The position numbers and the translations under genes were made by a program. This document shows, piece by piece, positions 896 through 58,922 of a stretch of DNA of 64,000 nucleotides. The stretch is from NCBI GenBank assembly GCA_018127085.1, contig CM030727.1, forward strand, positions 310,001-374,000, given 5' to 3'. The stretch comes from Pneumocystis sp. 'macacae'. Taxonomy: Eukaryota; Ascomycota; Pneumocystomycetes; Pneumocystales; Pneumocystaceae. The notes below the pieces were generated by a model, which worked only from the letters and a program-made list of their open reading frames with translations, was not told the origin of the DNA and did no database searches. Position 1 is the stretch's first letter, and each line of letters opens with the position of its first letter.

Positions 896-3800
896 TTATT
901 TGAACAAACCAAGAACATCCTCTAGCATCTTAAATCCGTATGCAATAGCAACATTGTTAATTATAGCAAAAAAATCTTGATAGTAATCAATTGTAGAAAC
1001 CCATTTACCTGAACATGTGCAGTATTCTTGTAAGTTACTCTCTTTTATTTTTTTACATTTTTCACAACGAAAATCTTGTATTTGATAAGTCATTATCATA
1101 TGTTGGACTTTTCCAATCAAAACTTCTTCAATAGCAAGTCTATTATATTCTGAAAAACATTGAAGGCATTTTAAAACAAACATTTTTTTTCCAAATTGAT
1201 CAGTTGAAAAAAGGCCATTATCTCTACAAAGATCAATATCACGTAAAAACCCACAATTTTGACAAATAACAGAGATTACATATGACCGACTTGGATTCTG
1301 AAAAATAGATTCAGGACTAAACTCACTAATATCCAATATTCTTAATAAATCTCTCCGTAACATTCTTACATCTAAAGAAAATTCCTTCACCAAGTCAAAA
1401 ACAGCACAGATACATTTTACAAATAACAATACAGAATTATCAATTTTTAAATGAGAACCTGGTAGATTAGGGACTTCAAAATCTACAGCTAATTTTGAAT
1501 CTCTAAAAGAATTGTTTTGTTGATAAACTAACAAAAAAGTACGTTTAAGCAAAGGTTTAGCTATTTCATTCAAAATAGTATTTTCACCTAACTCTTCTGA
1601 AGCTTGGGATTTATTCAGATGATCCTGACATTGATATTGAGTAGAGTATTCCTCCAATGCAGATAATTTTGATTTATACATAAGTGATATAAACTCTGTT
1701 ACCCAAACTTTAAATTCATCTTGAAGAATCTTGGGAAGAAAATTAGCAATATGCCAGTGAAGTATTGTATTTAAATCCTGCCCCTCCTTTATCTCTAAAC
1801 ATGCCTTTCCACCATAATTAACATCATCCATCCAAAGAAGATAGTCCCAATATTCTTTAATATTAATATCTAGAAAATTAAAAAGAGGTTTATTTCTAAT
1901 TGTTTTTATAATATATAACCCATATGTATACGCATTATCCAAATTTTTTTTAGTAGTTTGTATAAGAACACGGAATGTATTAGCAAACACTATTTTTGAA
2001 CCAGATCTTTTTAAATCAGAGAGTAAAGTTATAAACGCCTTTTTTAATATTCTTTGAACATAAATATAAAGACAGATATCATATAAGAAAGAATCTGAGC
2101 TAGAAACCCATCGTAAAAAATGTTGAACCATTAAATCAGCATTCCTATTGCCTGTACTAGCCTCAAACAACCAATGCTTGAGTAATGATTTCAAAACAAG
2201 AATTACAGAGTTAGAAACATTAACATCAATAAAGTTCTCAGTGCTATTATGTATATCACTATCTAAAAAAGAAAATTCATCAGGTATTTGATCAGAAGTA
2301 GAATCAACCATATTAGTCAAAGCAGAATTCAAAATAGCAGAAACATGTAAACTTTTAATGTCAAGCTCAATACATACGTTTTCATAAGATCCTGGGTTGT
2401 TAACTAATGGTATGTCTAATCCTTCTTGCGTATATAACATCCAATCTTTCTCATGTCCCCCATAATCGGGAATAGAGGATCTTGACCACCATAATAAATA
2501 ATTATGTTCCATAAGGCATCTTGCAAATGTAACATCAATGACAAATTTTGAATCATCCTCCAAAATATCACAAAGAGGTATATTACTATATCTAGAAAGC
2601 TTAATCCTGTATGAAATAAAAGCAGACAAATGTAAAAAAGACGTTATTACTTTCTTTCCAAAATAAGTTTGCCATCCTAATGGTGGTATATTATCGTCAT
2701 CTTGAAAAAATTTCATAAGGGGAAAATCAAACAAAATAGGAAAAAAAAGATTTAATTTATCATGCTTTAAAGTATGAACTACAACGGTAGGCCCATGTCT
2801 TTCAGTTTGATACTCTCTTATGCAATTCGATAAAGCTTTATATAGTTTCTTCTCGGTTTTTAAAATAAGAATTTTGAATACAATAGAATCATTGTACTTA
2901 AAAGCCAAATCATCAAAAACACCCTGAGACTTTAAACTAGAGAACAAATCCTTGTAAAGTTTTTCAAAATTCGGAAACACAGATGTTTCACGAGAATTAT
3001 CCAGAACAAACAAATTAGCTATAGATTTGTTTGAGAAAAATATTGAAATAATTTGCTTATTTCCGGAAAAAAATTGAGTTAAAAATATAAAACTCAAATT
3101 GGATTCCTCTAAATATGAAACGTTTTTATCTGATTTTTTCAACATTGTTAAATCAAATCCCTTTTCTAACGCTTTTCTTAAACTACCCTGTCCTGTATCA
3201 TTGAATTCACATGTCGCACCTAACAATAAGACAGCACGTTCTTTTATAGATACCTGACTTTCAAATATACCATCAATACTCGGATGATTTAAAAAACTTA
3301 ACAATGATTTCTGTCTATTTTTATAAACTTGTTCTAAAATTTTAAGTTCAAAAAGATAATCAGAATATCTTCCATTTGGTAAGATTTTTGAAACTTTTTC
3401 AATTTCACAATTTTCTATATTAAACTCTGGAATATCACCAGATTTAAAATTAATATATATAATTCGAGGAATAATCAACTTGATATTATGCAATGAATTA
3501 TCAATTAATACCCAAGCTCGAAGCTCACCTGGTATATCTGTTTGATGAAATTCTAAAACTTGCCATGTTTTTGTATAAGTAAAAATAGCTTTATCACGAA
3601 AAAAACCCAAAAGACTTCTATTTATGTCAATATTTGGGCCAAACAAATGACGACGTGTATCTCTGTTCTGTTTTTGTATCTTCCATTTATGTTTTTGATA
3701 TTGAAGCCATGACTTATAATCATAATCAATATCTACGCTCGGCAAATCTAATACAATAAAAGAATCATCTTTTTCAATTTCTTTTAAGATTTCTTTACGT

Positions 3801-6800
3801 TTATTAGTAGCTTTAGAAGTAATTTGACTAGTTCCTTGAAAAGGAAGTTCTTCAATATCAATAAAAGATGATTTCTTATCAGTATTAGTAATATCTTCCA
3901 TAACTTTAGGTAGTAGTTTAAAACTTTTTGTGATAGAATGTTGCTTAAATTTATCAAGTTTAGCAGCACATCTTCTTTGAAGCCATTCTGGCTGAGCAAC
4001 ACGAGGAACAGGATTTGATACCATTTGCATTGCTGCAGGAATAGTTATAAGTTTCTGTATAACGGAACTCAAGCGTTTTACATAATAATCCCAATCAAGA
4101 ATTGTTCGAATATCATAATCCAAAAGACTGTTATCATGAAGCCACTTTTTTAAAAAATACTTTTTTATACTCTCATCGGCAGAAAATATTGCAACTGGAA
4201 TGGCCCTTTCTACGATAGAAGCATCTTTAGGTTTAGAAGATATAATAAATCTACATAGTAAGCCACGATCTTTGATCATTTGATCACCCAAAAATTCAGC
4301 TAAACGTTTTGCTGTTGATATAGACGTTGATTTTTGTGCGCCATATTCTTCTAAAGTTTTTGACATACTTCTATTCTCAGATATTAAATCAATTAATTCT
4401 TCGTCAGCTAAAGTCGAACCCTTACTATACAAAATGTCAAGCCATTTATTTGCAGCAGTTGCAACAGCAGTATAGCATTCCTCTAGAGTAGTGCCTTCTA
4501 AAAATAATTTAAAAGTTTGAGACTGAAAAATCTTAATTAATTTTAATTCTCCTCGACGCTTAACTTCAAAACCTTTAAGTTCTGCAAATGTATTATCATC
4601 ATTAAATACAGCATATTTCTTTTTAATAGTTTTGTCTTCTTCCACAGATGTAGGCAATATCATAGCTTTATAAGGACCATCTATTTCAAAAAAAATACTG
4701 TTTTCACTATGAACTTCATATTTATATCGAACAGAATCAACAAGATCATGATATTGATGATTGGTAAATTGAGAATGAATTAAATAGTTTAACATAACAC
4801 ATGGATAAGATACAAAAAAAGTCTTCCCATTTGAAAAATTAAATAAATAGTTCTGGGGAAATGTTGACGGTAAAATACACCAAATACCATCAGTATCAAG
4901 TTCAAGAGGTCGACCAACTTTTTCAATTAACTGTCGAGCTGCTTGAATAATTCTAGCGCCAGTTAAACAAGTGACACCTGCCATTTCCATAGAATACCAA
5001 CGTGAACCTTTACGCATAACATATCCATAAAATGAATTTAAAATTACTTTATGAGCAAGCTGCAATGAATCATATAATACAATCATTTTTCGAGCTTCAT
5101 CAATCTGTGAAAGATTTGAGGGAGATATGCTATCAAGTTTCTGTTTCCATTGTTTCAATAAGTCCTTAAGTTCATAACGTCTATCACGAAAACTTTTAAC
5201 TGTATCAACATAAAATGGATTTTCTCTTTGACATACTATAGTTTCTCGTTCTACTACACTAGAATCACGAATTCTACCATATATTTTTTTGCAATATTCT
5301 GTCAATCGTTTTTGAATAATAGAAGATTGCTCTGAAGCAGATAATTCATCAAAACTTTTTGAAGAAGCACCTGAGAACTTTCCAGGAAAAGATTCATTTC
5401 TTAAGGCATGTTTAATCATATTATATTCATCACGTTTGGCTGGGAAAAAATCACCATGCCATAACCATGTCATTTTTTTATCACATATTTTCCCGGGTTT
5501 ATTGAAATCACAAGAAGCACATCTAAACTCATCAATCATAGAATCCGGCTGAAGTCTATTTGTAATCATAATATTAGGGTACATTGATGCAACATCTAAA
5601 TGATAGATCTTAGGATACTCCGTTCTAACAGGATTCTTCTTAAGGTCCTCAAGCTGTAAAATAATTTGTTGTTTTATCTATAAATAAGTTAAAGGAAATT
5701 CCTATATATTTTTTTCTAAAACTACATCATCATAATTAACAATATCTGAAACTTTTTTTTTAGCTTCCACTTCAATACTAAATTTAAGAGCAGGATCAAG
5801 TTCACCTATAAGCTATAATCTAATAAGAAATTTTATACAAATAAACAAGAAAAAACCTTTTCAACAATATCAGGATCAATACTAAACTTTTCTAATATGT
5901 CGCTTCGAAAAACACCTGCCTCAAGACTTTCAACATGGCCACCAACATATGTTTCACTCTCCAAAAGATGCCCTTCATAATGTTTATCATAACGATCAAT
6001 ATGTTTATTAGGTAAAATAATTCCTTTCTTAAATGCTTGAACCTATCAAAATAATAAAAAACTACATATATGTATACATTTTTTTTACCATTAAAAGCAT
6101 TTCACATAATGTTCCAGTACCTTTAGACAAAACATCACCAGGATTCAAAGGAATAATATTACACAAAGAAAATATAAAAGGATGCACATATTTCATATAT
6201 AAGTAATAAGTTGAAACTGCATCTGAAACCGAATATTGAGCAAGAAGTTGGGGTTTTTCGCTAGCATATCTAACCCTGATAAATAATGTATAATAAATAC
6301 AATTTAAACACACTTTGTCATTAGTTCAGGGTCTAACTCAACTGGATCGTATCCTAATTTCGCTTTTGTTACAGCTTTTAATCCTTGACTACCCTGAGGC
6401 AAATAACTGTCTCTTTTAACCCAACGATAACAATCCATATGAACACAATACGAACTTTGATATTCATCACTTTTGTTCTTCATAAACCCTATATCCTCAT
6501 ACATATTTAAACCGTACATAGAAGCTCTAGCATCAATAAATGGCCAATCAAAAATATCACCATTATATGTAGCAATAATTGTAGGTTTTACATCCTTAAT
6601 ATGATTGAAAAATCGTTGAATCATACTTTTCTATTAACAATCAACATACATATATATATAACCTCTACTAATTTATATCATACCTCATCAGATTCATTAA
6701 ATATCCAAAAAGGACCTTCGTACTCAGGTTTGGGTGTATATTCAAAATTATCTATATCTGAAGACACAATATCTCTATTTGTGATCAAAAATCCCTAAAA

Positions 6801-48844: not shown

Positions 48845-51151
48845 GTTTTCATTTTCATTATTTTTAAAAAGCATAGCTAAATTGAAATCCATTCTTTTAT
48901 GTTTTCTATTTTATAAAAAATATTTTATTTCATGTTCTAAATTCTCATGTTTTATGGGTTTTGAATCTTTATAATAAAATAAATATTGAAAGAAAAAAAT
49001 TATAAATGACAAAGAACAAATATTTTCTAGTTGTTTTAATACGAATATTTTTTGTAAGTTTACTATAGATTTTTTTATTTTAGTTGTTCTTGTTCTTTCT
49101 TTAAAACCTTTTATTATTATTCTTATTATTATTGTACTTAATGGTTTAAATAAATGTTTATTGATATTATTTTTAAGACATTTCATAATTTATCTTTGTT
49201 TTAAATATTTTTGTATTTTATTTAAGAAAATTTATGATACTTTAATATATTGGGATAAAAAACAATAAATAATTTTGAAATTATCTTAAAAGTTTTTTAA
49301 TTTTTTTTAGATTAAACATTTATTTTTTTAAATTATTTATTAAAATCTAATACTTTTTTTATATTAATAAAAGCATATTTTTCATAAAAAGTAAAAGATA
49401 GTTAAGCTTAAAATAAAGTTAATCTAGTACATATTATATAATTATATTTATTTTTTTACTAAAATCTTTGTGTAATAATATTCGTTTTCGATATAAAATA
49501 CAAAATAAATAACTTTTAATTTTAACATTTTTTATAAAAAATTGTTTTTTTTTCAATTTTAATATTTTTATTTTCAAATTTAAATATTTAATATATAAAT
49601 TATTGAGATGCTTTCAATTAGAGTTACAATTTTGATAGTTATTTATTATATTTATCTGCTTTTTTAAAAAAATAGAATTTTTAAAGATTTAAGCTCAAAC
49701 TTTTAATAAATGTTTAAAGCCTTATTAAGTTCTATTATGAATACCAAATATAAGAGTTAATGAAGAATAAATATCAATAAATATATTATCTTCTTTTAAA
49801 ACTATTGTTTATTTTATAATATTTTTAACATTTTGCAAAATATTTAGATATTTAAAAATATAGATATATAGATTAATGAGTTTTTTGTTAGAAAAAAAAA
49901 TTAAAAAATCGATTATATATATATGATATATGACTTTATGAAATAGATATATATTATGCTAGTTATCTTTTTAGTTGAAATTATTTAAAAATTTCATAAC
50001 GATAATATTTGTTTTATATATGAAATTATTTAATTTAGCTTTTTATATCATTATAATATTATATATGTATTATATATATTATAAACGTTTAAAAAATCCT
50101 ATTTATTCAATCTACAGATTTATATACTTTTTAATTATTAGAATTAATGTTTTAGAAAAAAAACCATTATTTTAAATATACTTATGAATAAAAAGATTAC
50201 AAAATGTTTAAAACTAGTATAATAAAATTATGAAACGTAAAATTTAAATTCATCAAACTGTAATATTTAAATGCATTATATTAAGAAATATTAAATTAAA
50301 AAAATGCTTTAAAACTTAGTATATATTTAAATAATTTACAATTTATTAAATAGCTTATTGTATACATAATTATTATTATAACTTTATTATAATAAAAATT
50401 ACAATTTAATACTTTTACTAATCAGAAAACAAAAGAAGTTTTTAAAATCCTTTATAACATTTATTTATTTATATTAGCTTTTTTTCTAAAAACATTTTTT
50501 ATTTATATCAATAGGAAAAAATATCTTAATATTGACAAAATGTATTATCCAAATACTACAAGAATAGTGATTTGTAGATTTAAAAATTTTAAATATTTGT
50601 TTTAAATAAATATTAAAAATATACTAAACGTCTTTACTTCAATTAATATAATATAGAAGCAAAATATTTCATTTTACAACTATTGCTATTTTTTTCAAAC
50701 TATATATAAAAAGTAACACTTATTTATAAAATAAGTATTTAATATATTACTAAAGATTCACCTATTTGAAATAACCTAAAAATTATATAACATTCAAAAA
50801 CTAATAGAATTTAGCATAAAAAATCAATTTTTTTTTTCTAGAGAACACAAACTTTTAAACAAATTAAATTATCTAAATTCAAAAATACTATTAATATACA
50901 CTTTTTTATATTTTCTTAACATTTTTTACATACATCTCTGAGTATATATATAATACAAAGGTTATTACGTTAACTTTTTTATCAAGTTTCCAATCTTTTA
51001 ATAAAAAGAGGATAGCTAATTTTTAAAAAACTAAACACGGCAACGTGTAAATATGCTCATTACAAAGTTATTATACATATTATACATGTTATTATTATAT
51101 ATTATTGTCGAATAAACCATATTTTATATTTTCAAAAAAAAAATACAAAAA
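48845..51151. other. 2.3-kb gene-free AT desert
   Basis: The most AT-rich block in the window; one 60-base line (49801-49860) has only 6 G/C. It is dense in A and T tracts, with no tandem repeat of note, no spliced gene and no recognisable RNA. A frame of 91 codons on the minus strand (48911-49186) and one of 66 on the plus strand (49975-50175) are made of Ile, Lys, Phe, Leu, Tyr and Asn, as expected by chance at this composition. It lies between COX7 and the sorting nexin gene. It could be a centromere core, an origin of replication or simply a long promoter. Confidence 0.5.
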
Positions 51152-53298: not shown

Positions 53299-54570
53299 CT
53301 ATTTTGCAAAACTATCTCTCGAAGGCTCCAATGTATCTATAGCATCTGTGTCAACGATGCCTTGATCGTCTTCCGATCCCTCTTCAACATCCGATACTGT
53401 CTGTGCGTGAACTAGTAGAATAAGGATACGCAAACACAAACTCAACCAAGCTACCTCCCACACGGACCTCCTCCCCATTGATATCAATATCTTTCATAAG
53501 ACGGCTTAAATGATCCAGCTTTTCCTTCTTGCTTTTCTCGTCCCGCTCCCTAATAAGCCTCTCAAGCTCGGGACGATATCTCAGCTCATATTCCTCCACT
53601 TTGCGCTCAATGGCATCCATAAAATCATCCATCCCAAACCCTGTCACTGCTGAAACAGCCACCACATCCAAGTGGCGATAGAACTCCTCAAGCATAAGAC
53701 TCATGCTGTTCATCAGACTAGACATATAGCCCGACCCCCCCTCCCCCTCCACATTCCCCTCGTCCCTTGAAAGCGCCGACTGGAACGCCTCAAAATCTGT
53801 CATCCACTCCCTTGCAAACCCCGCATCCTGCACATCTGTCTTGTTAAACACCACAACAAGCGGCAGCTTCGTCTTGTACAAAATCGAGCACGCATACAGC
53901 ATCGAACTCATAAACGTCGTGCACGACCTCGACCGCACCGTATCAACAATATACGCAATACATGTCGGAAACGACGACGCAAGCGCATCCGTTATAATCG
54001 ACCCCGATGCCGACCACGTAAAGATCTCTGCCAACACATAAACAACCTCCTCCTCCCCCTTCTCCCCACCAATCTGTCCCGGCGTGTCAAACAGAATATA
54101 CCTGCTGACTAAGCCTCCTTCCACTCCCCACACACATACCGCGCCCCCCGCTTCTCCAGAATCGACAGCACCTGGTCAAACTTTGTTGTAAACAGATTCA
54201 GCGACGTCACAATCGCCCCATTCGGCCCAAGCCCGTATCTGCCCATCGCCCATCAGCCCTGTCTGCCACACCCCACTCCCTACTGCTTCATCACCTCCCT
54301 GTAGTTGACCGTGTCGCAGATGTCGATATTCACATTGTACGGCACCGACACCACCGCCGGGTCTGTCTCCCATTACCATTCTGCCTCGTCCCCCACGCAC
54401 ACTCACCAAGATTCACAATATATGGGACCTCTTCTCTGCTCCGCATGTGTGCATTCAGCCGCTGCAGAAACGTCGTCTTCCCTGCACCGTCCTCAGCACT
54501 CTCCCCCCGCCGCCCACCCACCTGAGCCCGCCATCCCCACCACCAGCACACTGCACGCCTTTCTCTCCAT
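53299..54570 (-). CDS. GPN1: GPN-loop GTPase 1 (Npa3 type)
   Basis: GTPase needed for assembly and nuclear import of RNA polymerase II. Exon 1 [17 protein letters not shown] joins [60 protein letters not shown], so both the P-loop and the GPN loop are complete. Then [40 protein letters not shown] (guanine-specificity NKTD), [24 protein letters not shown] block, and [20 protein letters not shown]. Introns are 40-45 nt and GC-rich: 54482-54521 (40 nt, 75% GC), and one with GTAGGG...GGGCAG before YGLGPNG. The last intron (GTAGCT...CTACTAG, 43 nt) leads to an acidic tail ending EPSRDSFAK, where base composition has already fallen. It is the left edge of the GC island. Confidence 0.9.
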
Positions 54571-54639
54571 CGCTCCGCTCCGGTCACCGGGCACCCGTTG
54601 CCAGGCACCTAAGCATGCCCGTACACACCACACACCACA

Positions 54640-54775
54640 CACTACATACATATACATATATACATATACATACACATATACACATACACTGCATATACAT
54701 ACACACACCATATACAATACATATACACTGCATACGCACCGTGTACATACACACCATACACATACACCGTGTGCT
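54640..54775. repeat. CA/TA-rich microsatellite (CATACA-type)
   Basis: About 135 bp of imperfect CATATA, CATACA and CACACC units between the GPN1 start and the NVJ2-like stop, in an otherwise GC-rich setting. The plus strand is almost free of G (apart from GCATAC and CGCAC variants). The repeats share the CATAC core with the 11-bp minisatellites 2 kb away. Confidence 0.85.
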
Positions 54776-54781
54776 GCACCA

Positions 54782-56543
54782 CTAGCACGTTGCTGCACGC
54801 GCCGCATCTTCGCTACACGCCTCGACATCGCTCTCCCCAAACCCAAACTCTGCGCCAAACTCCGCCTCACACTCCCCAAAGTCCTGCAGCTCCTCCTCAT
54901 AGTGCTCCGTCTCCCCGCTGTCCGCCGAGTCCTGCTCAGCATCCCCCGCCCACCCGGGTGTCCCGTCGTCAGCCTGCACCGGCGGCGCAGGCAGCGGCCG
55001 CTGTGCCGACGAGATTGTCTCGTAGCCTGTGCGCGCAACCGCCGGGGCAGAGACCGAGTGCACCAGCTCGCAGTATGCCGGCAGCTCGTCTGCCCACTGG
55101 TCCTGTGCCGGCGCATAGTCTGCGCTCCCGCGGCCCCTGCTGTGCCGCTTTGCAATGTAGCTTGCTCCCCACCGCCGCACAGCATTTGTTGCCGAGCTCA
55201 GCGCCACTGCCGCCCGCTCCTTCTTTGCGCCCTCCCAGCCCCCCGGCCGCAGCGTCCGCCCAAACGCACTCAGTGCTGCCGCCGTCACAAACGACCTGTT
55301 CTCCGCCTCCTGCGCGTCGCCCGCTGCAAGCGTCGTGCACGACGCTGCCCGCTTCAGCGCGCCCTCCCGCAGCGTCGTCCGCAGCCGGTGTGTGCTCTCT
55401 GCTGCCCGTGCATCCTCCCACAGCCCGCCCCGGTGCGCCCGGCCCTCCGTGCTGCAGATCGCAATGTCCTCCATGTGCGGGAAGACCAGTGTGTTCTGGA
55501 TCTGCGTTGTCAGTGTCCACGCCTGCTCCACCCACCGTCTCGCGGATCCGGTTCTCCAGGACCTTGAGGACCATCGAGTATGTGATCTGCTTTGAAAAGA
55601 CAACCGGCTCAATTGCCATGTCGATCTGCCGTCAGCGCCGCCTCTGTCTGCGCCATACCTCAGGCATCTCATAGAACCCGTACCAGACGCGGTTGCTTGG
55701 CGGCGGCTTCATAACCACCCCGACCGTCCCCTCAAAGCGCCGGACGACGACTGCGACAACGACGTCCATCCGCCGCCCGCGCAGCCGCCCGCCGAGGTTG
55801 AGTGCAACACTCGTCCCAATCTCGACGCGGACGCGGCCCTCATATGTGATGCGTGCATCGACTGTCAGATGCCCGTCGGTCGACAGCTCGCGCAGCCGCG
55901 GACTCGTCAGCTGTGGAACAGCGGACCCAATGTCGACGTGGCGGACAACAATGTCTGACAGAAAGCCCGGCTTCTTGATGCGTGCAATCTTCTTTGCAAG
56001 GCGGTCGACAACGAGCTGCTCGGCAAGCTGTGTCTGGTAGAGCGCAAGAAACAGCCGCCCGACTGCAGCATTGAGCCAGCGCATCTCGACCTGTGCTGTG
56101 CTGCCGTGGATTGTCTGCAGCAGTGCAGACATGTGTGCTGCGTCAAAGCGCAGCGGCTGCCGGCCGCTGGCTGCAGCCAGTGCATGGTACCAGTCCTCCT
56201 GGTCTGAGGGGCTGCTGCAGAAGAGGAAGTAGTGGCGGCGGGTCTCGGGATGGTCGGCAGGATCGGCAATGTGGATGGCGTGTGGGCGGGCAAAGAGCTC
56301 GCTGTCGTGGGCGTCGGGGGGCCAAAGGGCGACGGCACAGCGGGGAAGAAGGAGGGAGTGGCAGAGGTCGGAGCGGTGCTCGTGGTCGTAGAGACAGAGG
56401 GAGTCGGCACGGAGGACGGCGTGGAAGAGGACAGAGCGGCGGCGGGGATGGCCGCGGGCCACGCGGAGCCAGCCGGTCTTTGCAGAGGGGTCGCGGGGGG
56501 AGCACGGGGGAGGGAGGGGCGGAGGGGGGGGAGGGGGGCGGGC

Positions 56544-56574
<31 letters not shown>

Positions 56575-56636
56575 GGCAGCGTGGCAGCGCCGGCGGCATA
56601 GGCGGCGAGGTGGGAGAGTGCAGGAAGCCAGTGCAT
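54782..56636 (-). CDS. NVJ2: PH-SMP domain lipid-transfer protein, Nvj2/TEX2-like
   Basis: ER-anchored lipid-transfer protein of membrane contact sites. The start MHWLPALSHLAAYAAGAATL runs into a Leu/Val membrane anchor and a proline run (residues about 30-45). A PH domain follows (TGWLRVARGHPRRRSVLFHA ... FCSSPSDQEDWYHALAAASG). The SMP domain has WLNAAVGRLFLALYQTQLAE, LAKKIARIKKPGFLSDIVVR, VDIGSAVPQLTSPRLRELST and GHLTVDARITYEGRVRVEIG. After a 33-nt intron comes DMAIEPVVFSKQITYSMVLK then VLENRIRET, and after a 34-nt intron NTLVFPHMEDIAICSTEG. The tail of about 230 residues is Ala/Glu-rich. Total about 650 residues (yeast Nvj2 is about 770). Third positions are nearly all G or C. The opposite strand is also open and should not be annotated. 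Confidence 0.85.
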
Positions 56637-56716
56637 GTGTGCGGGGGGCGGGGCGGGTGCACGCTATGGGCGCGTTGTGCGGGGTGCAGCACCGCGTGTA
56701 TGGCCGCATTTTGGGT

Positions 56717-56749
56717 GTATGCGCGCTGTATGCGCAGTGTATGCGCTGT
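56717..56749 (+). repeat. 11-bp minisatellite, forward cluster (GTATGCGCNNT)
   Basis: Three back-to-back 11-bp units begin at 56717, 56728 and 56739 (GTATGCGCGCT, GTATGCGCAGT, GTATGCGCTGT). More degenerate copies of the GTATGCG core follow to about 56840. Confidence 0.9.
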
Positions 56750-56768
56750 GTCAGTGCATAACTGCATA

Positions 56769-56820
56769 CAGTGCATACACCCGAGTATGCGTGCTGCAGT
56801 GCATTCGGGTGTATGCGCTG
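56769..56820. repeat. Inverted repeat, 16-bp arms with 20-nt loop
   Basis: Left arm CAGTGCATACACCCGA at 56769-56784, right arm TCGGGTGTATGCGCTG at 56805-56820, with 15 of 16 positions complementary. The loop itself contains GTATGCG. It could extrude as a cruciform or form an RNA hairpin. The arms are built from the same core as the minisatellite. Confidence 0.88.
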
Positions 56821-56968
56821 CGCAGTGAGGCATATATGCGTGTTGCGGGGTGTGCACTGTGCGGTCCGCTGTGCGTTGGCAGTGTATGCGCCATGCGGTG
56901 TGCGGGGAACATGTAGCGCGGCGAGCGGCACGTGTATGTGGAGAAGCGGGCGCGGGCGACGCGAAACG

Positions 56969-58575
56969 ATGGCGACGCGGGCAGCACGGGAGGCAACGCC
57001 GGGCGGGCAGAGGACGGCGCGGACGCCGTTTAGAAGCGTCTCGGTGAACAGCGACACAGAGAAGCGGCTTCTGTCGACGCCGGCACAGCGCGTTGTGCGT
57101 GGGCGCGCGAAGCAGGGCACAGGATGCACGGCCAAGACCGGCGCGCATACACTGCGCATACAGCACGCATACAGCACGCATACAGCAGGCGGAGGCGCAG
57201 CAGCACGCAGCACAGAAACACAGGCAGCGCGCAGCTGTGCAGCACGTGCAGGGCCGGCGGTGCGGGCACCGGGTCCAGCGGGCGGGAAGGCAGACGCTCC
57301 GCCAGGAAGACCAGCGCCAGCAAGGGCGGGCGGCACAGAGCAGAGGCGATGCAGCACCAGCAAGAGGCAGCATTTGACGCCAAAACACAGTGCAACAGAC
57401 GAGAACGAGTGTCCGGGCGTCTATCTGACTGCACGGCTCGGAAACATGCAGATCACGACGCCGAGCCACTGCAGAGACGTCTGGGTCCCAATTACAGGCA
57501 GTCCTCCCGAGAGCTCGGGCAGCTCGAGCCCAGAAAGCCCTACAGGACACCGGGGAACAGGAGGGACAGTGCAGCAGAGCGGGCAGGACGAGACAGGGAA
57601 AGAGGTTTTCTATGATGCATGGGATGTGTCAGAAGCACTGGCAGGATTGGAGGCACCAGAGCCACAGAAGAAGCAGGAGACGGGGTTTGGGCAGGGAAGA
57701 CCGCTGTCGTGTGTTGTGGCATATGTAGACGTCAAGAGCGGGGACAGGAAAGACGCAGGCGGGAGTTTCAAGTGTATTCTGAAGGAATTGGGGGCGTCAG
57801 TAAAAGAAAGATGGGACTGGCTGGTCCCAGAAGAGCGAGGAGAGGCAGGATATAGGGGACAGAAGAGTCAGAGAAGGAGGGGCTCTGTATTTGAAGAAAT
57901 CAGCATTACACATGTGATATGGCGGCAGGGATCGGTGGAGATTCTGGAAAAAGTCAAGGCAGCAAACAGATATCTTGAAAGGATGGGGGAGAAGCGGAGG
58001 ATACAGTGTGTAGGCATCCATTGGGTCACAAAGTAAGGGTGGAGGACATAGGGAAGGAGAATGACGGTGTGCAGATGTGAGGAAGAGGACCGGCACGTGG
58101 ACGAGGCGAAGTACACAATTGGGGAGAGAAGCAGTGGGCAGCAGCGTGCAAGGACAGAGGGGAGCCAGTGGACAGGACCAGGAGAGAAGGGTGCGGGCGA
58201 GACAGAAGCAGCAGGAGTGTTGCAGAACGGGGCGGGAAGCAGTGGGAAAAGCAGGTCAGGGGCAAGCATGTTCGAGCAGGGAGTGTCTATGGGTGCATCG
58301 GTGACGGGGTCTGAGCGGGGATTAGCGAGAGGAGTAGCGGTGGGACCAAAAACACCGGTGCCTGGCAGCTCATCGCCTATGAAAAAGATAGGGTTTTCAG
58401 GGACAAAGACGCCTCCAAGGCCATGTAGGGTTTGCAGGCAGGGGGTGGGTGCTGACAGTTTCTAGTCACAGAGCTCGAGCGATGCGGTCTTATTGCAGCA
58501 AAAAAGAAAATCGAGTTCCATAAACCAATAGTGTCGAGTCCGTTGGCAAAGAAGTGCTGGACATTTTCAGACTAG
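56969..58575 (+). CDS. BRCT-domain protein, probable nuclear DNA-damage or cell-cycle factor
   Basis: Single BRCT domain late in the protein: LSCVVAYVDVKSGDRKDAGG, SFKCILKELGASVKERW, SITHVIWRQGSVEILEKVKA, then QCVGIHWVTK-CEEEDRHVDE AKYTI, with the conserved Gly-x-x-Trp of the third helix present as GIHW. A 45-nt intron (GTAAGG...GTGCAG) splits WVTK from CEEED. The N-terminus MATRAAREATPGGQRTARTP, then FRSVSVNSDTEKRLLSTPAQ, is Ser/Thr-Pro rich and probably disordered. The end was extended past an apparent stop at 58463 by a 41-nt intron (CCA-T|GTAGGG ... TTCTAG), giving ELERCGLIAAKKKIEFHKPI then VSSPLAKKCWTFSD. About 490 residues. An 11-bp repeat sits inside the early coding region. A microcephalin-like fungal BRCT protein is the nearest pattern; the function is inferred. 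Confidence 0.7.
57143..57186 (-). repeat. 11-bp minisatellite, inverted cluster inside the BRCT gene
   Basis: Four 11-bp units starting at 57143, 57154, 57165 and 57176 (GCGCATACACT, GCGCATACAGC, ACGCATACAGC, ACGCATACAGC). GCGCATAC is the reverse complement of the GTATGCGC core of the cluster at 56717. Eleven is not a multiple of three, so gain or loss of a unit would shift the frame if the array is translated. Confidence 0.9.
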
Positions 58576-58922
58576 GATTGTTGCGTACGCCATGGATGCT
58601 TTTCTCTGGTTCTTTTGGCGTTTTGTATATGCATCGGTTGAGCAGTTGAATTTGCTCATATCAACATGTTTTCGCTTCAAAATGTATATAGTTGGTTCTT
58701 TTACTCGGGAGACACAATTGTTTGTGTTGTTCAAGTGTCATTGTCTGTCTAGTACGCTTTGCTGCAAACTGATATATTTTTATTGACCCATCTATTATTC
58801 GTTTCCAGCCCTGTTTGAGCCGACGTAGCAAACGAGTGGTGCAAGAAACCAAGGGGTGTTGGAGGTTCTCCAGACTCCTGAAAATACAAAAAAGACAAAG
58901 ATTGTCAATATTTATGAAGTAA
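58576..58922. other. Intergenic region between the BRCT gene and RFC5
   Basis: 347 bp of normal AT-rich composition starting right after the BRCT stop. A 64-codon frame beginning at 58592 (MDAFLWFFWRFVYASVEQLN) resembles no known protein and is probably chance. It contains the RFC5 promoter by position. Confidence 0.4.

Follow-up and report, generated by a model that had tools for sequence, protein, structure and literature searches.

Why should a few kilobases carrying ordinary fungal genes be GC-rich within strongly AT-rich surroundings? The question is raised by a 64,000-nucleotide stretch of the genome of the macaque lung fungus Pneumocystis sp. 'macacae' (hereafter P. macacae; assembly GCA_018127085.1, contig CM030727.1, positions 310,001 to 374,000), which we term the window and number from its first letter, and in which a GC island occupies 53400..58600. 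We consider it probable that double-strand breaks have recurred over a long time at one nearly fixed site, and that this island is the footprint of their outward, G-biased repair, with telomerase-like insertions. This answer draws on direct observations: a genome-wide set of islands, their central symmetry, a strand asymmetry linked to the side of the centre, outward-facing telomere-like words, native genes, and amino-acid drift at two loci.

The GC island of the window is divided by a strand switch

The 200-bp composition profile of the window gave a G+C content of 0.325 up to 53.4 kb, 0.46-0.775 across 53.4-58.6 kb and, to the right of the island, 0.35 in the first bin (58.6-58.8 kb) and 0.28-0.41 from there to 60 kb. 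A single low bin inside the island (0.435 at 54.6-54.8 kb) corresponds to a CA/TA microsatellite, and outside 53-59 kb no 1-kb bin of the window exceeded 0.341. The GC jump that an initial annotation had placed at 53350..58580 is therefore real, composition rising from approximately 30% to 46-77% and then returning. That annotation had described a gradual left edge and a sharp right one; the left description holds, while on the right the edge also tapers and is simply the steeper of the two here.

A feature absent from the initial annotation is a change of strand bias within the island. The plus strand is C-rich in the left half (53540..55840, GC skew -0.34) and G-rich in the right half (55841..58502, GC skew +0.28). 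The switch lies at approximately 55.84 kb, or at 55.8-56.15 kb in the 200-bp profile, inside exon 1 of a gene encoding an NVJ2-like protein. G+C is elevated in the coding sequence and introns of the island alike.

Islands with the same switch occur throughout the genome

The 8.27-Mb P. macacae assembly was scanned for G/C runs 15-20 bases long, excluding contig ends and pure poly-G/C runs. The islands recovered are those that contain such runs, and weaker ones escape. At least 39 internal clusters were found on contigs C1 to C16, with one to five per contig, and C19 held one more that was not counted. We read 29 clusters whole (28 fetched loci and the window) and one on C7 in part, leaving nine unread. 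Every cluster read whole holds an island that is 2.7-6.1 kb long, tapers towards both edges and peaks at 67-78% G+C in bins of 200-250 bp. The median half-widths to 45% G+C were 2061 bp on the left (range 1105-4203) and 2190 bp on the right (1314-3120). The whole-assembly survey of GC proposed by the initial annotation, run here as a scan for G/C runs, thus revealed further islands genome-wide; the island of the window is where it had been described, as one of dozens rather than a unique element. A promoter or CpG-island reading was rejected, since several centres, including that of the window, fall within coding frames and the observed/expected CpG ratio is 0.79-1.01 within 2.5 kb of the centre.

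On the plus strand, GC skew was negative to the left of the centre and positive to the right in all 29 islands. As splitting an island at its cumulative-skew minimum forces a V shape, the midpoint was reset from G+C only. The negative-to-positive change persisted in 29 of 29, with a mean right-minus-left difference of 0.55 (standard deviation 0.15, smallest 0.24), five islands being weak on one side. Forty-eight overlapping AT-rich control windows gave a mean difference of 0.009 (standard deviation 0.115); the largest control value (0.31) exceeds the smallest island value. Both halves passed a skew of 0.15 in none of 94 overlapping control windows. The mean profile of 27 islands shows C climbing from 0.15 to 0.44 on the left side, with G flat at 0.17-0.22 until the last 400 bp, and the right side mirrors the left. 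Beyond 3.3 kb from the centre, the skew of these 27 islands lies within 0.062 of zero.

Telomere-like words face away from the centre

Across the 29 islands, 84 copies of the 8-mer GGTTAGGG lie on the outward strand (that reading away from the centre) and three on the inward strand, and the word is missing entirely from 171 kb of AT-rich flanks. It is present in 21 islands and ranks first among its 168 letter permutations, the median of which is 7. The bare hexamer TTAGGG ranks second of 60 permutations and in part follows composition; the 8-mer is the better evidence. Perfect three-unit TTAGGG arrays are confined to the starts of contigs C10 and C15, which fits TTAGGG being the telomere unit. 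No internal array of three perfect units exists in the assembly, and short degenerate stretches are found in 24 of the 29 islands. Telomere addition at the break itself was considered and rejected: it would place TTAGGG on the inward strand, the opposite of what is observed.

A second word, GGGTTAGGGTTAG, was located at 25 internal places by a genome search, and all eight copies inside the 29 islands face outward. Two copies lie on the minus strand at C2:75.6 kb, where the GC-run scans were silent among the matches listed. From this orientation we predicted an island centred to their right. The 5 kb fetched at this place (L030) confirmed the prediction, with a centre at 76.6 kb and skew changing from -0.28 to +0.31, the right edge lying outside the fetched sequence.

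The word TGTATGCG is also enriched but mildly stranded (73 outward, 41 inward). Minisatellite-like stretches of TGTATGCG and CGCATACA are present in 16 of the 29 islands, including the window, L002, L010, L013 and L018. They cause most of the BLAST matches between islands, of which 31 of 34 contain GTATGC-type repeats. Words that we take to be hotspot words of S. pombe are present by raw count in 4 (ATGACGT), 13 (CCCCGCAC) and 29 (CCAAT) of the 29 islands.

The outward strand gains G in preference to C

At distances of 250-2500 bp from the centre, the outward strand gains 0.11-0.28 in G and 0.03-0.08 in C, a ratio of 3.4-6.0. In the outer flank (1-3 kb) the drop in A on this strand exceeds the drop in T, which would follow if A>G changes were the initial ones.

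A negative-to-positive skew is the classic sign of a replication origin, and the centres might be initiation sites with the outward G-rich strand as the leading strand of bidirectional replication. Both the sign and the outward-growing 3' ends would agree with this. Nevertheless, the skew is gone within approximately 3 kb rather than extending along a replicon, although short local effects could still arise, and G+C rises by around 35 points; we know of no origin asymmetry that raises it so far. We regard replication initiation as an unlikely, if credible, source of the islands.

Alternatively, a strand-specific process might act on a long-lived bubble or R-loop in the absence of breaks, for example by deaminating adenine on the exposed outward strand. 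The excess loss of A in the outer flank is what such a process would leave. Against it, C on the outward strand does not drop, T drops too, and the telomere-like words are left unexplained, so that we judge it quite improbable.

The initial annotation had favoured GC-biased gene conversion at a persistent recombination hotspot. This is supported in part: the process is regional and centred on a point, the edges taper over the size of conversion tracts, the genes are native, and there is a P. macacae-lineage amino-acid excess, including weak-to-strong change at the Mon2 gene described below. The part that fails is symmetry. Under ordinary GC-biased gene conversion, G and C are expected to increase equally on a strand, yet the outward strand favours G several-fold and the sign of the skew is identical in every island. 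Because this strand-symmetric gain was tested and not found, the islands are set apart from ordinary conversion islands, and strand-symmetric conversion at hotspots is very unlikely to suffice by itself. The islands work like recombination-associated GC islands to which a strand bias has been added.

Skew follows the side of the centre and not the direction of genes

Thirty open frames from the islands were scanned against Pfam, of which 22 returned families; as stop-to-stop frames, they may contain introns. Skew was compared with gene direction in 31 coding pieces lying no more than 2.5 kb from a centre, including four pieces from the window, one of them from a weakly assigned BRCT-like gene. 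In all 31, skew tracked the side of the centre rather than the direction of the gene. Twenty pieces are read outward and 11 inward, against the G-rich strand, and the mean skew is 0.30 in both groups. Third codon positions (with the BRCT-like piece excluded) hold G at 0.57 and C at 0.16 in outward-read pieces and C at 0.52 and G at 0.19 in inward-read ones.

The majority of outward-read pieces might suggest that transcription makes the skew, through R-loops, divergent promoters or purine loading of the coding strand. All 11 inward pieces nonetheless keep the skew. At L023, moreover, where the genes of a DEAD-box helicase and of a ubiquitin hydrolase are convergent about the centre, the island resembles the others, and in the window the switch lies inside a coding exon. 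The inward-read genes rule out a skew made by transcription, to which we give scarcely any probability.

The genes are native and have drifted in the P. macacae lineage

Three genes lie in the island of the window, as the initial annotation had proposed. Spliced models place GPN1 (GPN-loop GTPase 1) at 53299..54570 on the minus strand in seven exons (Pfam ATP_bind_1, E 4.3e-82) and the gene for the NVJ2-like SMP/PH-domain protein at 54782..56636 on the minus strand in three exons (Pfam MMM1, 6.2e-8; PH, 2.1e-5). The third, in two exons at 56969..58465 on the plus strand, encodes a microcephalin-like BRCT protein. Orthology supports the first two; the BRCT-like assignment is weak, a Pfam scan returning no family and a PDB sequence search a weak match to microcephalin (E 9e-4) spanning approximately 30 residues. 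All nine introns are of the short host type, 33-45 bp long with a G+C of 0.40-0.75.

The best database match of GPN1 is PMAC_003150 of Pneumocystis sp. 'macacae' itself, and among its top matches outside this species is P. jirovecii, at 86% identity. The spliced GPN1 model (339 aa) agrees with other Pneumocystis species, unlike the deposited PMAC_003150 (425 aa), which retains GC-rich intron sequence and has an out-of-frame start and a different end. Gene calling seems to have been misled by GC-rich, stop-poor introns. A search with the NVJ2-like protein returned Pneumocystis orthologues, none of them named for P. jirovecii. This protein is 595 aa long here, compared with 964 in P. wakefieldiae and 1007 in P. 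murina. In P. wakefieldiae, GPN1 and the NVJ2-like gene bear the consecutive tags MERGE_002483 and MERGE_002484.

Mon2 (L013, contig C3), which matches PMAC_002103, is a single open frame running from AT-rich DNA into an island. In the island part, 37 of 452 sites carry P. macacae-specific changes and 18 carry P. jirovecii-specific ones, and in residues 200-599 the counts are 31 and 1. The first 100 residues reverse this order (5 and 10). Outside the island, the corresponding counts are 35 and 21 of 1060 sites. The P. jirovecii Mon2 model lacks approximately 120 of the 500 island-core residues. In the island core, G, A, R and P together account for 0.31 of the residues of P. macacae, compared with 0.16-0.19 for five other species, but outside the island their share is 0.09-0.11 in all six.

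The check for AT-to-GC substitution suggested by the initial annotation could thus be made at the level of amino acids. Weak-to-strong changes make up 12 of the 37 P. macacae-specific changes of Mon2 inside the island and 1 of 35 outside it, and the signal is weaker at the other two genes. For GPN1, there are 18 P. macacae-specific changes (3 of them weak-to-strong) against 3 specific to P. jirovecii, and for the NVJ2-like protein 81 (9 weak-to-strong) against 14 for P. canis. The amino-acid sequences of Mon2 and GPN1 indicate drift that is specific to P. macacae; the NVJ2-like drift could be common to P. jirovecii, because P. jirovecii entered the comparison for Mon2 and GPN1 only. The two species separated approximately 62 million years ago, according to the accessible text of PMC7940399.

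A transferred block, contaminant or assembly error, for which the composition jump alone speaks, has virtually no probability and, as the initial annotation had also held for transfer and contamination, can be set aside on the grounds of Pneumocystis orthology, native genes with host-type introns, conserved adjacency in P. wakefieldiae, the Mon2 frame across an island edge, 29 similar islands, and a published assembly that used both Nanopore and Illumina reads (accessible text of PMC7940399; 16 scaffolds there, 19 contigs here).

A proposed model of outward, G-biased break repair

In established models of strand-invasion repair, synthesis carries each 3' end beyond the break, which makes the outward-reading strand the new one. 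The islands combine a point source, flanking regions of 1-3 kb, an outward-strand footprint and telomere-unit words on that same strand, and this combination suggests repeated breaks with outward repair synthesis. We infer recurrent breaks at the centre, which would be repaired by homologous recombination (through a displacement loop, or D-loop, or by synthesis-dependent strand annealing), DNA being synthesised outward from the centre. The outward-reading strand on each side would then be the newly made one. It would gain G either through misinsertion by an error-prone repair polymerase or through resolution of heteroduplex mismatches towards G on the new strand, two sources between which the present data do not choose. 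Tract ends varying over approximately 1-3 kb would produce the tapered profile. Outward 3' ends displaced from their template might sometimes be extended with TTAGGG-like repeats by telomerase before annealing, and this proposed extension would account for the outward orientation of TTAGGG.

The putative break site is most likely a meiotic recombination-initiation site, given a point-centred footprint of approximately 1-3 kb per side with opposite asymmetry on the two sides in every island. The meiotic nature of the breaks is made more plausible by human hotspots, which leave a strand-asymmetric footprint of the same scale.

Several observations weigh against this model. The main difficulty is that the asymmetry is opposite in sign to that of human hotspots: there, C>N and A>N mutations affect the strand that resection leaves single-stranded (accessible text of PMC7615360), whereas the corresponding strand here gains C. 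In the inner kilobase the drop in T slightly exceeds the drop in A, and a simple A>G account is limited to the outer flank because of this. The islands have no centre motif in common; at 300 bp or less from the centre, most enriched words are GC words in strand balance. GGTTAGGG is missing from eight of the 29 islands and outward TTAGGG from five, and the island of the window holds one TTAGGG only (53548..53553, minus strand), in outward orientation within the GPN1 coding sequence. The partly read locus L031 (C7:119301-124300) starts inside a broad GC-rich island with a cumulative minimum near 119.8 kb. Its skew is irregular and a telomere-like word at 120.7 kb runs against its side; perhaps two centres overlap there. 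Finally, the title of PMC5821091 suggests primary homothallism in Pneumocystis, and frequent selfing, if common, would weaken conversion bias.

We also advance, tentatively and with somewhat more doubt than belief, a broader version in which the islands are oriented mutators. Breaks would persist at each site, G would be written into the outward strand and telomerase would add TTAGGG. The amino acids gained by a conserved protein would then depend on the side of the centre and the direction of its gene, and composition alone would provide a strand-resolved map of initiation.

Further features of the window and the assembly

In the window, a CA/TA-type microsatellite identified by Tandem Repeats Finder (TRF) separates GPN1 from the NVJ2-like gene (54623..54734). 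A CGAGGA tandem repeat at 56546..56574 on the minus strand (TRF, spliced model) encodes LVLVLVLVL at the N-terminal part of the NVJ2-like protein. TRF also identified a GTGTATGCGCA minisatellite (56715..56751) and its partner arm, a CGCATACAGCA minisatellite (57144..57187); 56715-56751 and 57143-57173 form an inverted pair of 31 nt with 97% complementarity. The most AT-rich stretch of the window, with 14% G+C over 2 kb (49001-51000), ends approximately 2.4 kb to the left of the island.

Fourteen candidates beyond the 39 clusters were marked by telomere-like or TGTATGCG words: C1:55.9, C1:309.8, C1:562.0, C2:75.6, C3:292.1, C5:211.3, C5:369.8, C6:164.6, C6:373.8, C10:272.6, C12:105.0, C12:166.2, C12:295.5 and C16:173.0 kb. 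The only one read, C2:75.6 kb, is the island described above. Among the matches listed, the run GGCGCGGGGGGCGGCGCGGG or its complement repeats within approximately 13 kb of the ends of contigs C3, C4, C8, C10, C13, C15 and C16, of which C8 carries the window.

Significance

If the model is true, recombination initiation sites can be read from the sequence in a fungal genus without easy genetics, and the islands are a strong case of break repair strand-biased enough to rewrite genes. They would also help to separate mutational from conversion bias, which are hard to distinguish when strands are pooled. The drift at Mon2 and GPN1 postdates the split from P. jirovecii; therefore some sites would have been active long enough to double local G+C, and such long activity bears on the hotspot paradox. 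The proteins carried along are housekeeping ones, including GPN1, MON2, an LSD1-like oxidase and ribosomal proteins.

Comparison with known systems

No description of such islands was found in the open-licence literature on Pneumocystis genomes and GC content, as far as its accessible text extends, which is no proof of absence; the accessible parts of the 2016 and 2021 Pneumocystis genome papers and of the centromere preprint do not mention them. A search of the open-licence literature for GC skew at recombination hotspots likewise returned nothing.

The regional centromeres of Pneumocystis resemble the islands in being genic, several kilobases long and free of repeats, but there is one per chromosome, and its G+C in P. 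murina and P. carinii is lower by a mean of 3.9% (accessible text of PMC10327204). A centromere reading was rejected, as the islands are GC-rich and number up to five per contig among the matches listed.

Runaway GC in gerbils shares with the islands lineage-specific GC-rich clusters and raised weak-to-strong substitution in conserved genes, and these clusters have been attributed to recombination (PMC7403616, in its accessible part). In that text, however, 'GC skew' denotes a G+C bias, and no central strand switch is described. P. macacae differs in possessing dozens of islands of a few kilobases, each with a strand switch, in a fungus. Human meiotic break hotspots offer the central point, approximately 2 kb per side and the opposite strand bias on the two sides, yet their trace is a faint excess of rare variants (accessible text of PMC7615360), whereas in the islands base composition has shifted as a whole and the sign is reversed. 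Interstitial telomeric sequences, as presented in the accessible text of PMC2246262 and PMC8537989, are likewise internal telomere units tied to break repair; those of the islands differ in being short, degenerate, many per island and facing away from the centre. The nearest system is thus that of the gerbils for the enrichment, human hotspot mutagenesis for the asymmetry, and interstitial telomeric sequences for the words.

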